From the IMG/VR virus record IMGVR_UViG_3300022750_000007, positions 1-41,618 of that record: a stretch of DNA of 41,618 nucleotides. One strand, given 5' to 3'. The notes under the pieces were generated by a model. That model did no database searches. It was not told the DNA's origin and saw only the letters and a program-made list of their open reading frames with translations. Each line of letters begins with the position of its first letter. The first letter of the stretch is position 1. Shown in pieces: positions 17,652 to 25,027 of this stretch. This DNA is from a virus. A program made the position numbers and the translations under genes.

Positions 17652-17803
17652 AGTGTGAAACGCAAAAACCAAAAACGTGTAAAAAATCGGGGTAGTGTGA
17701 TCGGTGGTGAAAACCCCCCTTACGGGGGTGTTTGTTTTCACACCTCAAATCACACCAATCTGGGCAGTGTGAAATCACATGTGAAATCACACTAGATCAC
17801 ACT
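17652..17803. promoter_or_regulatory. GTGTGA/TCACAC repeat array: candidate origin or late control region
   Basis: Eight copies of GTGTGA or its complement (or close forms) lie in 150 bases. AGTGTGA occurs at 17652, 17694 and 17766; TCACACC at 17738 and 17750; TCACACT at 17787 and 17797; and the palindrome TCACATGTGA at 17775-17784. The segment 17660-17690 is A-rich (AAAAACCAAAAACG, AAAAAATC), unlike the GC-rich genome. The array sits between the primase-helicase gene and the first late gene. It could be an iteron-type origin or binding sites for a late-gene regulator. Confidence 0.55.
17710..17737. terminator. Hairpin terminator between primase and late genes
   Basis: ACCCCC (17713-17718) pairs with GGGGGT (17724-17729) around CTTAC. 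On the plus strand GTTTGTTTT follows; on the minus strand a TTTT run follows. It would end early transcripts after the primase-helicase gene and could work in both directions. Confidence 0.65.
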
Positions 17804-19737: not shown

Positions 19738-20481
19738 CTAGACGCCCTTCCAGCAGCGTTCGGGGAAGCTGCAAAACCGGCAGACGAAATGGTCCCGTGT
19801 CGCGAATGGCCTGGGCAAAAGTTCCTCGTTGCGCGTGGACTCGATGACCCGTACAGCCCGGTCCGTCATGCGCTGCGCCTCGCCCGCGTCCAGATCATAG
19901 ACGAGGTGCAGTTGCTCCCCATCGTCCAGATTGGTGACAGTGAAGACGGTTTGGCGTAGTTCCAGATATGCCATGCAGGTGTGGATTTGCGACCAGTATT
20001 TGGGACGGGCTTTCTTTAGGCCGTCACGCTTGATCTCTTTGAATGTTTTGACGCCTACGGCCTTGTGCTCCCACATAGCCGGATAGGACAGGCCGGGGAT
20101 TTCCGGCCCGCCAATGAAGACCCCGTCCGGCTCTCCGCTGAAGTCTCCGTCCATCTGCACGAACCGGAATGGCTTGCCGGTCTTCTCGCTTTTCTGCACA
20201 AGTTTAAAGCCCGCGTCCTGAAACCAGCATCGCGCAAGTTCCTCAATCATGTGTCCGAAATCGAACTTGCGCAGGGTAAGGGGCTTGAAGTCGCTTTCCT
20301 TGGGAGCGCCCGCGAACTCGTACTGAAGCTGGCGTTCGCACTCCGTGCCGATCCCGGATGCGCCAACGTAGGCGCGGCGCTCCTGCTTTGAGCGCTTGTC
20401 GAGAAGGGAGGTGAAGAGGACTTGGTTAATCGCGACATCGGTCGCGGCCTTGGTCGCATGGTGTGAATTGAGGTCGATCAT
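19738..20481 (-). CDS. Cas4/RecB-like PD-(D/E)XK nuclease with Fe-S cluster cysteines (247 aa)
   Basis: Motifs: C48 in GIGTECERQ, catalytic GEPDG (116-120) and EHK (138-140), then three C-terminal cysteines C234, C237 and C243 in CRFCSFPERC. One early plus three late cysteines is the 4Fe-4S arrangement of AddB/Cas4-type nucleases. It probably makes single strands for recombination with the ATPase and SSB-like proteins upstream. It follows the terminator at 20506-20532 and abuts the primase-helicase (TAGATG). Confidence 0.85.
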   Translation of the reverse strand: MIDLNSHHATKAATDVAINQVLFTSLLDKRSKQERRAYVGASGIGTECERQLQYEFAGAPKESDFKPLTLRKFDFGHMIEELARCWFQDAGFKLVQKSEKTGKPFRFVQMDGDFSGEPDGVFIGGPEIPGLSYPAMWEHKAVGVKTFKEIKRDGLKKARPKYWSQIHTCMAYLELRQTVFTVTNLDDGEQLHLVYDLDAGEAQRMTDRAVRVIESTRNEELLPRPFATRDHFVCRFCSFPERCWKGV

Positions 20482-20549: not shown

Positions 20550-20963
20550 TCAGGGGAAGGGAATTTCGTCGTCGAAATAGGCCCCGCTATGATGTCCAGC
20601 ATGGAAGCCAATCGCCAGAACATCAATCACCTGTTCCTTGCTCAGTTCAAAGAACGGCTTGTCGCTTGGGAGATGCGAAAGCTGTGAGCCGATCTGAGGG
20701 AGAAGAGCCTCCAGAGACCCGCGCAGATGAGCATCGCCAAGGCTGTAGGCGATCTCTCCGCACAGAATACGGCCAATCGAGAGCTTGACCCGCTCCACGA
20801 TCCACGCCGAGACGATGGCGTAAACCACAGAGTCCGGTGCAGCATGTCCCGGAAAGAACTCCCTTAGTTTTTCCGCCGCAACCTTGACGGCCTGTAGTTC
20901 CTCCGGATTAGGCGGGGGAGGAACGAATCCCTCCCCCTTCTTCGCCTTCCTTACTGCGCCCAC
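20550..20963 (-). CDS. Hypothetical replication-region protein, GTG start (137 aa)
   Basis: GTG 20961-20963 overlaps the upstream SSB-like gene by 13 bases. The basic N-terminus MGAVRKAKKGEG and Pro run are followed by helices (AVKVAAEKLREFF, VVYAIVSAWIVERVKLSIG, KEQVIDVLAIGFHAG). The acidic tail DDEIPFP resembles the conserved C-terminal tip of single-strand binding proteins that recruits partners, which is suggestive only. No domain is named. An 8-bp perfect hairpin lies in the coding start (20914-20937). Confidence 0.65.
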   Translation of the reverse strand: MGAVRKAKKGEGFVPPPPNPEELQAVKVAAEKLREFFPGHAAPDSVVYAIVSAWIVERVKLSIGRILCGEIAYSLGDAHLRGSLEALLPQIGSQLSHLPSDKPFFELSKEQVIDVLAIGFHAGHHSGAYFDDEIPFP

Positions 20964-21550
20964 GTCGGCTTACCGGCAGAGGCTTGAGCCGGAGCTTGAG
21001 CAGGCTTGGATGCAGAGGGCTTTGCGCCGGTAGAACCGACGTTCTGATAGCCCTCTTGATCCGGAGTGATGATACTGCGGATGATGTTCTTGTCCGGCCA
21101 CTTTTCACTGTCTGGTCCGTGGGCCTTATTCTTGAGCCGTCCGGTGTCGATGCCAATTTCCACCGGGAAGGTGAGGCCGTTGAAGTCAGCGTAGGATGCG
21201 ACCTTACGCGCCGCCATGGCGTTGTCGGACGTATCGCTTGGCTGGATGTTGCGAGCCGCTTCTAGCATGGCGCGAAGCGCGGACTTGCTGATCTTGGCTG
21301 CGGTCTGCTGGCCTTCGGTGTGGCCGTCGATGGTGTAGAGGTTCCAGATTTTGCGGCGGTCGTAATCGCCGCCCTGAATCGTGAACTCGAAGTCCAGGCC
21401 GGAGGAGCCGCTGTCCGCGTTGCGGATCAAACCGCCATCACCACTACCACCGGGACGGATCGAAGCGACCACGATAGCAATCGTGCCCTCTGGAATCAGC
21501 GAGCCGCTAAAGCCGCTGCGCTGTTCTTCTGCTGTGTTGAAATCAAACAT
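20951..21550 (-). CDS. DUF669-like single-stranded DNA-binding protein (199 aa)
   Basis: The sequence opens MFDFNTAEEQ and continues SGSLIPEGTIAIVVASIRPG, GLDFEFTIQGGDYDRRKIWN and a C-terminal Pro/Ala/Gln linker. This is the pattern of DUF669 proteins, which replace SSB in many phages and lie next to Sak4-type ATPases. An OB-like beta fold is expected. It is directly downstream of the AAA ATPase gene. Confidence 0.75.
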   Translation of the reverse strand: MFDFNTAEEQRSGFSGSLIPEGTIAIVVASIRPGGSGDGGLIRNADSGSSGLDFEFTIQGGDYDRRKIWNLYTIDGHTEGQQTAAKISKSALRAMLEAARNIQPSDTSDNAMAARKVASYADFNGLTFPVEIGIDTGRLKNKAHGPDSEKWPDKNIIRSIITPDQEGYQNVGSTGAKPSASKPAQAPAQASAGKPTWAQ

Positions 21551-21577: not shown

Positions 21578-22411
21578 TTAGGCCGCTTGGGTTTCCGGCA
21601 GGGCGGTATGGATACCGCTCCGTCCGCGTTGCTGATCGCTGGCCTTTGCAATCAGTTTTCCGAGATGGGGTTCTTCGACAGGGTCGAGACGCCCCGAACG
21701 ATCCTTTGCAGGGACCGCGTGTTCGTTGTCTTTGTTTGTGATGAAGGCGCGGGTCGTGTTGCCATCGCCGAAGTCCACAAGGATGTAGGAGATAACCTCA
21801 TCCACGATGCCGGGAAGCTCACGGCCTGTCTTCGATCCCTCGATATGAGGTTCCCAGATCATCCGACCGTAATCGTCCTTATGCTGTTCCATGGCGCAGG
21901 TCAGGATGACGTTCTTTCCGCGTGCGTGCTGAAGCTGGGTGATGAAGCCTAGCATCTCTCGACCCAAGAGGCCGTAGGCCCCGCGCATGTCCTGCTTACC
22001 CTGTGCATTGAAAGCATCGGGCTGTTGCTGCGACCACTGGAGGCACAGGCGAGACAGCTTGGTGATGGAGTCGACAAAGATCGTGTCGTACTTTTCCAGC
22101 ATGTCCATGTCGAAGTCGGAAGCGACATTGGCGTAGTGCGCTGCACTGTACGGCGCATGGTCTGGCAGGGCAGGATTAGGCCCGCCAATAAACGCCGCCA
22201 GATCACGACACTCCGGCCAGGCAAGCGGACGAATGGTGTCGCAGCGCACGTCTTGCACCGCAAGGTCACCGGCCTCGCCATCCACGAACAGAGTGCGCTC
22301 TGCATCCAGAGTGCGCAGAAGGCTGGTCTTACCCACGCCATAAGGCCCGAGAATCAGGGCCTTAACCCCACCCTTCTCTGCCGCCCGCTCATCAGCCGTA
22401 ATGATCTTCAT
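21578..22411 (-). CDS. Sak4-like RecA-fold AAA ATPase, recombination protein (277 aa)
   Basis: Walker A GPYGVGKTS (22-30) and Walker B DTIFVDS (109-115) are clear, with VILTCAMEQHKDD further on as sensor region and ARAFITNK-type beta strand near the end. Such single-domain ATPases next to DUF669 proteins promote strand annealing or exchange in phages. C-terminal residues 240-277 are disordered. Confidence 0.8.
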   Translation of the reverse strand: MKIITADERAAEKGGVKALILGPYGVGKTSLLRTLDAERTLFVDGEAGDLAVQDVRCDTIRPLAWPECRDLAAFIGGPNPALPDHAPYSAAHYANVASDFDMDMLEKYDTIFVDSITKLSRLCLQWSQQQPDAFNAQGKQDMRGAYGLLGREMLGFITQLQHARGKNVILTCAMEQHKDDYGRMIWEPHIEGSKTGRELPGIVDEVISYILVDFGDGNTTRAFITNKDNEHAVPAKDRSGRLDPVEEPHLGKLIAKASDQQRGRSGIHTALPETQAA

Positions 22412-22414
22412 TGG

Positions 22415-22885
22415 TCAGTTTCCTTTGATTTTGATGGAGGTGTTACCGGGCTTGACGGTGCGAGCCGGTTCGAACTGTTTCTGGATCGAAGATGGCCACG
22501 CCGTATAGCGCTTCTCCGTCACGACCAGATTCGTTTCGATGTATTCCGCCGGATCATCGCCAGCCTCGGCAATGCGAGCCGCGATAGCCTTGAGGTCCGC
22601 TTGATCCCACTCGACCTTCTTAGGTCGGCTCACCTCGATAGCGCACCCTTCGGCCTGGACATGAACCGTGCCGGTGTCTTTGGCCTCACGCAGATACGCG
22701 GCCTGAATCTGGTCCTTAAGCCGATGCTCTACCTCCCCCTGAAGTGCGCGGCTTACGCCAGTCGCAGACGCGCTAAGCGCCTTTGCGTCTTCCAGCAGGA
22801 GGCCAATCGTCTCAAGGTCAAGTTCCGCAATCGCAGAACCATCGTTGATTAAGTCCATTACGGACGGGATATTCTGAAGGGTCAT
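22415..22885 (-). CDS. Recombination-cluster protein behind a structured leader (156 aa)
   Basis: The start is MTLQNIPSVMDLIND at ATG 22883-22885 with AGGGAAG upstream. The frame open to 22966 is rejected as start because it lacks a ribosome site and runs through the leader structure. Helical N-terminus (LETIGLLLEDAKALSASATG), then a beta part (TVHVQAEGCAIEVSRPKKVEW), then DQADLKAIAARIAEAGDDPA. Similar proteins occur beside Sak4/DUF669 pairs in alphaproteobacterial phages; function is not known. Confidence 0.7.
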   Translation of the reverse strand: MTLQNIPSVMDLINDGSAIAELDLETIGLLLEDAKALSASATGVSRALQGEVEHRLKDQIQAAYLREAKDTGTVHVQAEGCAIEVSRPKKVEWDQADLKAIAARIAEAGDDPAEYIETNLVVTEKRYTAWPSSIQKQFEPARTVKPGNTSIKIKGN

Positions 22886-22950
22886 TTGGTCGCTTCCCTG
22901 TTTGATGTGTGGTCGTTTGTCTTTTGTTTGGGTGGTTGTGCGGAGGCCAT
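22882..22950 (-). CDS. Candidate 22-residue leader peptide
   Basis: ATG 22948-22950 opens 22 codons (MASAQPPKQKTNDHTSNREA plus TK). They end in a TGA that overlaps the ATG of the 156-aa gene as ATGA, the same coupling used across this operon. No Shine-Dalgarno site is visible and its start sits just after a stem arm. Translation through it would melt the long hairpin that hides the downstream start. It may be a regulatory leader peptide or chance. Confidence 0.35.
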   Translation of the reverse strand: MASAQPPKQKTNDHTSNREATK

Positions 22951-23005
22951 AAAAGGAAGCGACCAAACTTCACCGTGCGCTTACGCTACACGGAGACCTC
23001 CGCAC
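22885..23005 (-). promoter_or_regulatory. Interleaved inverted repeats in the leader of the 156-aa gene
   Basis: Arms 22885-22897 and 22955-22967 are a perfect 13-bp inverted repeat (TTTGGTCGCTTCC / GGAAGCGACCAAA) that buries the ribosome site and first base of the start codon. Arms 22938-22946 and 22997-23005 are a second perfect 9-bp inverted repeat (GTGCGGAGG / CCTCCGCAC). The order A-B-A'-B' means the two helices form either a pseudoknot or alternative folds. A small CCGTG/CACGG hairpin (22973-22993) lies between. This is the largest gap (178 bp) in the early leftward operon. Confidence 0.7.
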
Positions 23006-23063
23006 ATATTCTGTTAATCGCCGGTCATATGGTCGATTTCTCTCGGCAGATTGAGAGGACAGT

Positions 23064-23432
23064 TTATGCGGGTTCGGGCGCGGGGACAAGCAGAATATGG
23101 ACTTGTGCATCTTTTCCCGGCGCTCTGTCCGTCCACTCCGCATAAAGCGCAACGCAGTCGCTGTCGTCCCTTACGCACTGACAGAGAACAAGCGCGTCCT
23201 CTGGTCCTTTGATGTAGTTGGAAAGGTCGCGCTCTGCGCGTGAGGGCCTGTCGAACTTAAGGGATAGGCGGTAGGGGCCGGTTAGCGGGGCCTGGTCTAG
23301 CATCTGACGCTGTATGTCCATCTCTGCCAGGATACGCCACTTGCGATAGCTAGGGCTCATGATCTTTCGCCCGTGTCGCACAGTGAACATATTGTTCCCG
23401 GTCGGGGGCATTGGCAGAGACAGGCGAATCAT
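23064..23432 (-). CDS. RusA-like Holliday junction resolvase (122 aa)
   Basis: The start is MIRLSLPMPPTGNNMF (ATG 23430-23432 overlaps the previous stop as ATGA), with the typical RusA opening 'PPT.N'. FDRPSRAERDLSNYIKGPED and CVRDDSDCVAL carry the catalytic acidic positions. The family's D-x-D-N reads D-L-S-N here, so one usual Asp is replaced by Ser. It would cut branched intermediates before packaging if active. Confidence 0.82.
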   Translation of the reverse strand: MIRLSLPMPPTGNNMFTVRHGRKIMSPSYRKWRILAEMDIQRQMLDQAPLTGPYRLSLKFDRPSRAERDLSNYIKGPEDALVLCQCVRDDSDCVALYAEWTDRAPGKDAQVHILLVPAPEPA

Positions 23433-24863: not shown

Positions 24864-25027
24864 CCCATCCCCTCCAGCTTCCCCCGCAACTCCAGCACAT
24901 CCTGCGCCGTGAACCCGTCCGCCAGTTCCAGCGACCCGCCGAGCAGGCGCAGGAGGTATTGGCGTTCGGCGGGGGTGAGGATCAGTGGTGCGGGCGCTTC
25001 GTCCTGAAAAGGTGACCTCTCACTCAT
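24860..25027 (-). CDS. Small hypothetical protein (55 aa)
   Basis: MSERSPFQDEAPAPLILTPA, then ERQYLLRLLGGSLELADGFT and a final helix. The pattern LTPAERQYLLRLL resembles short phage proteins of unknown role. It overlaps the membrane protein upstream by 8 bases and the next gene by 4. Confidence 0.6.
   Translation of the reverse strand: MSERSPFQDEAPAPLILTPAERQYLLRLLGGSLELADGFTAQDVLELRGKLEGMG

Follow-up and report, generated by a model that had tools for sequence, protein, structure and literature searches.

A conserved three-way-junction RNA at the head of a phage recombination block, with a hexaloop complementary to gene starts, is a candidate translational regulator

The window analysed here is the whole of a 41.6-kb virus record (IMGVR_UViG_3300022750_000007, positions 1-41,618), and the mRNA at the locus discussed corresponds to its minus strand. 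There, between the gene of a RusA-like resolvase and a gene for a 156-aa protein, lie a structured RNA element and its leader. Downstream (3') of the 156-aa gene follow, in order, genes for a Sak4-like annealing protein, a 199-aa protein, a 137-aa protein, a Cas4-domain exonuclease and a primase/helicase; we infer from its position that the 199-aa protein (phrog_2300) is SSB-like and name it so. The element forms the head of a recombination block, most of its members having a Holliday-junction resolvase gene 5' and the first recombination gene 3'. The 156-aa gene (phrog_2480) adjoins Sak4 in several relatives as well. The genes referred to below are these:

23064 to 23432: RusA-like resolvase gene, phrog_34
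22415 to 22885, minus strand: 156-aa gene, phrog_2480, with a weak DUF7173-like match (Pfam, below cut-off)
21578 to 22411, minus strand: Sak4-like annealing protein gene, start context CTGACCA-ATG
20951 to 21550, minus strand: 199-aa gene, phrog_2300, with GACCAAA at 21561-21555
19738 to 20481, minus strand: Cas4-domain exonuclease gene, start context TGACCTCAA-ATG, degenerate in the window; GACCAAA in the relatives L162 and L168

A preliminary description of this DNA drew attention to two interleaved inverted repeats ahead of the 156-aa gene, and both are as it described them. On the minus strand TTTGGTCGCTTCC (22967-22955) is fully complementary over 13 bp to GGAAGCGACCAAA (22897-22885), an arm that contains an SD-like GGAAG and takes in the first base of the ATG (22885), and GTGCGGAGG (23005-22997) pairs perfectly over 9 bp with CCTCCGCAC (22946-22938); the two cross, in the order B-A-B'-A' along the mRNA. 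The 9-bp stem lengthens inward to 11 bp (GTGCGGAGGTC/GGCCTCCGCAC, with one U-G). A perfect 13-bp inverted repeat with arms within 60 nt occurs once in the window, whereas 60 dinucleotide shuffles contain 0.07 on average; single 9-bp repeats are commonplace (27 observed, 13 expected). The repeats are significant because of the folding of the 68-nt element and the covariation in its relatives, which show both to be parts of a larger, predicted structured RNA. Hairpins C and D of that RNA, a micro-ORF upstream of it and the repetition of its start motif at other genes are all additional to the features described earlier. Other inverted repeats in the window, at 24881-24973 and 17766-17793, include a 28-nt imperfect pair and the palindrome AGTGTGAAATCACATGTG. 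From 5' to 3' along the mRNA, the features of the leader are:

23030 to 23035, minus strand: CGACCA before the micro-ORF, an upstream site complementary to the loop
23014 to 23028, minus strand: micro-ORF reading MTGD and a stop, with a GACC-containing start; equivalents in L162, L169 and L168 read MTGD, MIRQ and MHT, each with a stop
22938 to 23005, minus strand: the whole 68-nt three-way-junction element
22995 to 23005, minus strand: outer stem B, 5' strand, 11 bp including the 9-bp arm; two-sided changes at 8 of the 11 pairs, with pairing complete (100%)
22973 to 22993, minus strand: hairpin C, with the GNRA tetraloop GUAA at 22984-22981
22956 to 22971, minus strand: hairpin D, displaying the hexaloop UUGGUC (22966-22961)
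22955 to 22967, minus strand: arm A, the loop and 3' strand of hairpin D
22938 to 22948, minus strand: outer stem B', 3' strand
22882 to 22950, minus strand: 22-codon ORF, exactly as described in the window; not conserved and judged not functional
22898 to 22937, minus strand: A/C-rich unstructured linker with another CGACCA (22915-22910)
22885 to 22897, minus strand: arm A', with the SD-like GGAAG and with GACCAA immediately before the ATG

The conserved RNA is a three-way junction of 67-69 nt, present in seven phage contigs (the window and six relatives), and in the window a linker of 40 nt separates it from the ribosome binding site. The tetraloop that caps hairpin C is of GNRA type in each member (GUAA, GCAA, GAAA, GUAA, GCAA, GUAA and GCGA in an alignment read by eye), and the hexaloop UUGGUC of hairpin D is invariant in all seven. 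The stem that carries this hexaloop varies: GAAGU/GCUUC, CGGGC/GCCCG, CGGA/UCCG and, in L180, CGGG/CCCG with a U-U mismatch. The 68-nt element of the window folds at -34.1 kcal/mol (z -4.7), with none of 200 shuffles as stable, and the 206-nt leader has a folding z of -3.3; in each of the six members tested the element is more stable than all 200 shuffles. In L180 alone the minimum-energy fold is a different one, and it is covariation that supports the three-way junction there. All seven members have G-U pairs and GNRA loops, which argue for function as RNA rather than DNA, and a DNA-level palindrome or origin is disfavoured on the same grounds.

Homologues of the 156-aa protein in IMG/VR led to three contigs that keep the leader, L162 (91% protein identity), L169 (66%) and L168 (64%); the more distant homologues inspected lack it. 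Using Sak4, primase and exonuclease as bait proteins added three remoter members, L180, L209 and L334. A covariance model trained without them (R1) recognizes L209 at E 2e-6 and L180 at E 1.9e-4, and a later model not yet including L334 (R2) recognizes that contig at E 1.4e-8. The 156-aa gene was not found in L180 and L209, where the element precedes Sak4. Loss of the stems in related phages, or uncompensated changes in them, had been named beforehand as what would count against the structure; the relatives keep both stems, and the outer stem shows compensatory changes, GTGCGG/CCGCAC becoming GTGTGG/CCACAC among close relatives, with hairpin C covarying too. Across the seven-sequence alignment 99.4% of pairs form, 16 of 23 carry two-sided changes and the covariation score is 0.582, compared with 36-52% pairing and scores of 0.06-0.13 when partners are slid by 1-3 columns; the alignment was fitted to the structure, which biases these counts in its favour, and the stems are directly readable in the raw sequences.

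Our searches for further members returned nothing convincing past these seven when models R1, R2 and R3 were run over several hundred loci, and two weak candidates, L316 and L351, were judged to be chance. A pattern scan of IMG/VR for the stem core and loop recovered three known members and otherwise matches without hairpin D. The best Sak4 identity in a prophage search of 385 Alphaproteobacterial genomes was 57%, and there is therefore no close host genome among them; an RNA-model search of ten whole genomes, in which few candidates were scored, came back empty, and named phages and plasmids gave no meaningful DNA match to the window. The element represents a new structured RNA family in a narrow phage group, of a known kind, the phage antisense or leader RNA.

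The small ORFs of the leader fare differently from its stems. The preliminary description had made a 22-codon ORF the operating part of a switch, its translation melting the stem, and the ATG and stop are indeed positioned in the window as it described. In L162, whose 156-aa homologue is 91% identical, this ATG has become ACG, L168 and L169 have no ATG start, the frame is shifted in L162 and L168, and no peptide conservation extends past the closest relative. A conserved leader ORF overlapping the stem, as a leader-peptide switch would have, was not found among relatives, in which start codon and frame vary, and we give this explanation almost no credence. Upstream (5') of the element, phages of the window's clade carry a micro-ORF of 3-4 codons whose start repeats the CGACC motif; it is absent in L180, L209 and L334. 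The best such site is that of L169, AAGCGACCAATG, with 11 bp to arm A. In the C4 antisense RNA system, c4-a1b1 is an upstream site complementary to C4, and the CGACC site of the micro-ORF may compete for the hexaloop in much the same way as that a1/b1 site. The stop codon of the upstream gene falls within hairpin C in L209 (1410-1434, the TAA of its GUAA tetraloop) and in L180 (4873-4893, a TAG at the UA bulge), so that ribosomes ending that gene would open the element.

The 13-bp repeat is the pairing of the hexaloop hairpin D with the ribosome binding site, and its conserved core is UUGGUC against GACCAA beside the AUG. In all seven phages the 9 nt that immediately precede the first gene's start codon contain a GACCA(A) to which the hexaloop is complementary. 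The motif reads GACCAA-AUG in the window and L162, and GACCA-AUG in L168, L169, L180 and L209, where the A of AUG completes the hexamer; L334, with GACCAGACC-AUG, offers just GACCAG, with a U-G at one end. In an independent test, five of the seven element-bearing phages had, for the first gene, an upstream hairpin loop exactly complementary to the six start-adjacent bases, against 3 of 686 control starts. Pairing of loop and ribosome binding site in the window's clade extends over 15-18 contiguous pairs, including G-U, and reaches into the Shine-Dalgarno sequence; outside that clade it comprises 8 pairs in L180 and 6 in L209, where, as modelled, the junction is stable and its loop pairs over a short distance with a linear stretch. 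Loop and target never co-vary, UUGGUC being invariant, and the loop-start contact is therefore without covariation support of its own. A further CGACCA (22915-22910) lies about 22 nt 5' of the first gene's start motif and is kept in the clade, as CGACCAAA in L169 and as GACCA in L168.

The claim that the leader can mask the ribosome binding site of the 156-aa gene, by a pseudoknot or by mutually exclusive folds, survives in altered form. In the window the three-way junction with a free ribosome binding site (-37.1 kcal/mol) and a fold in which that site is masked (-37.9 kcal/mol) are nearly equal in energy. Stem B, hairpin C and the long helix between loop and ribosome binding site sum to -54 kcal/mol before any pseudoknot penalty, which makes masking with the outer stem intact plausible. 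As a switch for the 156-aa gene, the earlier idea holds insofar as a structured leader can mask that site, and is too narrow insofar as the element precedes Sak4 in L180 and L209 and its loop matches several starts of the operon. Taking sequence comparison and predicted folds together, we consider it probable that the element is a cis-encoded RNA that controls translation, its loop forming a pseudoknot with the start of the first gene and perhaps pairing with later genes too. Loop D would pair with the start region and block 30S binding, and in the window's clade this pairing would zip up along its 15-18 contiguous pairs and bury the Shine-Dalgarno sequence too. The geometry may be that of an H-type pseudoknot with stem B, or of an alternative fold lacking stem B. 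Candidate triggers for release are processing, the competing site at the upstream micro-ORF, ribosomes, or a protein.

In the operons that carry the element GACCA also stands ahead of Sak4, SSB-like and exonuclease starts. Counting GACCA followed within 0-4 nt by a start codon, before L334 joined the set, we find it at 14 of 22 starts from four gene families in element-bearing phages and at 15 of 572 in relatives that lack the element (Fisher 3e-15; 2e-5 to 2e-4 for the four families taken separately), P values that are optimistic since the phages are related and the counts overstate independence. Ten of the 15 control occurrences are Sak4 starts, seven of which have one similar start context. 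The motif is missing from Sak4 in L168, L169 and L334, from the exonuclease in L180, L209 and L334, and from the 137-aa gene in all, and elsewhere in the window it does not mark predicted gene starts. In a separate Sak4 group without the element (L267, L282 and L290), GGGGGCCGACCA stands immediately before ATG or GTG, possibly as a coding overlap with the preceding gene.

How far the control extends along the operon is where interpretations diverge. A strictly cis-acting switch of the first gene, with GACCA at later starts being shared start context and no target, is quite possible, if short of an even chance. The cis pairing in the window's clade, at -25 to -28 kcal/mol over 15-18 bp, is far stronger than that available at later genes (about -9 to -19 kcal/mol), where matches are 5-10 nt. 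Against this reading, GACCA is rare at the same later starts in relatives without the element (1 of 174 for SSB, none of 108 for Exo), and L180 and L209, whose cis pairing comprises just 8 and 6 bp, nevertheless have GACCA at the second gene. Tentatively, we propose instead that one hexaloop may govern the whole recombination block: the leader RNA, possibly as an excised small RNA, would pair with a shared GACCAA at four to five starts of its own operon, these starts having come to share, by evolution, a landing site for it. Whether still part of the mRNA or released as a processed small RNA, that loop could then pair with the Sak4, SSB-like and exonuclease starts, and pairing at several starts would repress the recombination block together.

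The same hexaloop occurs in another group of phage contigs, in a candidate small RNA at L174:3160-3250, with similar sequences in L163-L167, L170-L173 and L175-L178. It comprises a sigma-70-like promoter, a hairpin GGAAGU-UUGGUC-GCUUCC and then a terminator-like hairpin (z -6.0), and gave no credible Rfam match. Its hairpin shares a 17-nt exact match with the window, of which a few would be expected by chance on a rough estimate, and the likeness may be a chance match or convergence.

Two further explanations place the structure in another role. It may act in transcription, as an antiterminator RNA such as HK022 put or as an attenuator, or as a processing signal, the match to the ribosome binding site being secondary; its early position in the operon and its compact stable fold would suit such roles. 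No terminator follows on the mRNA strand, however, and both the complementarity to start sites and the enrichment of the motif would be left unexplained, so that we regard this as very improbable. Near the element no sigma-70-like promoter was found. A protein operator is a less remote prospect, although still an unlikely one: the operon's SSB-like protein might repress its own synthesis in the manner of T4 gene 32, or a RegA-like protein might read GACCAA at several starts. The precedents are those of T4 gp32 and RegA (PMC3014915), and such an operator might look like this leader, in which an unstructured, A/C-rich stretch of 40 nt runs from the structured element into the ribosome binding site, but a protein operator would not explain why the loop is complementary, rather than identical, to the start motif, and the SSB-like gene is second or third behind the element, not first.

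Phage recombination genes, among them those for the Sak4 annealase, the exonuclease and the ssDNA-binding-like protein, have mostly been discussed as proteins. If a conserved RNA can set the translation of these genes jointly, it would represent a C4-like class with a role other than the control of immunity, and its compact loop and target make it amenable to base changes in a reporter. More generally, our observations suggest that where phage operons repeat a motif at several gene starts, RNA regulation may be at work.

Among known systems, the T4 gene 32 leader has a structured part, a pseudoknot that nucleates binding, followed by an unstructured run over the ribosome binding site (PMC3014915). 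Our element shares with it the setting, the leader of a phage DNA-recombination gene in which structure comes first and the stretch covering the ribosome binding site is unstructured. It differs in its three-way junction and in a loop that is complementary to the start, in having phrog_2480 or Sak4 rather than SSB as the first gene behind it, and in that a protein ligand is hypothetical. T4 RegA is a protein that binds A+U-rich start regions (PMC3014915); one regulator for many starts is common to both, as a proposal in the case of the element, where an RNA loop complementary to a GACCAA motif would take the place of the protein.

The C4 RNA of P1/P7 offers the closest anatomy. C4 is an RNA of about 77 nt (PMC5320573, PMC8198154). 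It has three stems and a tetraloop, its loops pair around the ribosome binding site of the target, and RNase P cuts it from a longer transcript (PMC5320573); icd and ant follow it within a single operon (PMC8198154), and a separate upstream c4-a1b1 element is listed (PMC2864571). The C4 covariance model (RF01695) matched nothing in the window or its six relatives at E values of 10 or below, and the other families of Rfam 15, with which all but L334 were compared, yielded nothing beyond miRNA matches attributable to chance (E 1.5 and 5.7). Only one complementary loop, D, was found in the element, loop C being a GNRA tetraloop, whereas C4 has two (a' and b'), one of them over the ribosome binding site, and the targets are a recombination block of phrog_2480 and Sak4 rather than an antirepressor operon. 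Shared with C4 are the three stems and a tetraloop (GNRA here, in 67-69 nt) and the position just 5' of the target on the same strand, in all seven phages. Standing apart from the C4 family by covariance model, second loop and target, the element nevertheless resembles C4 in its anatomy, and on that likeness it would work like C4.
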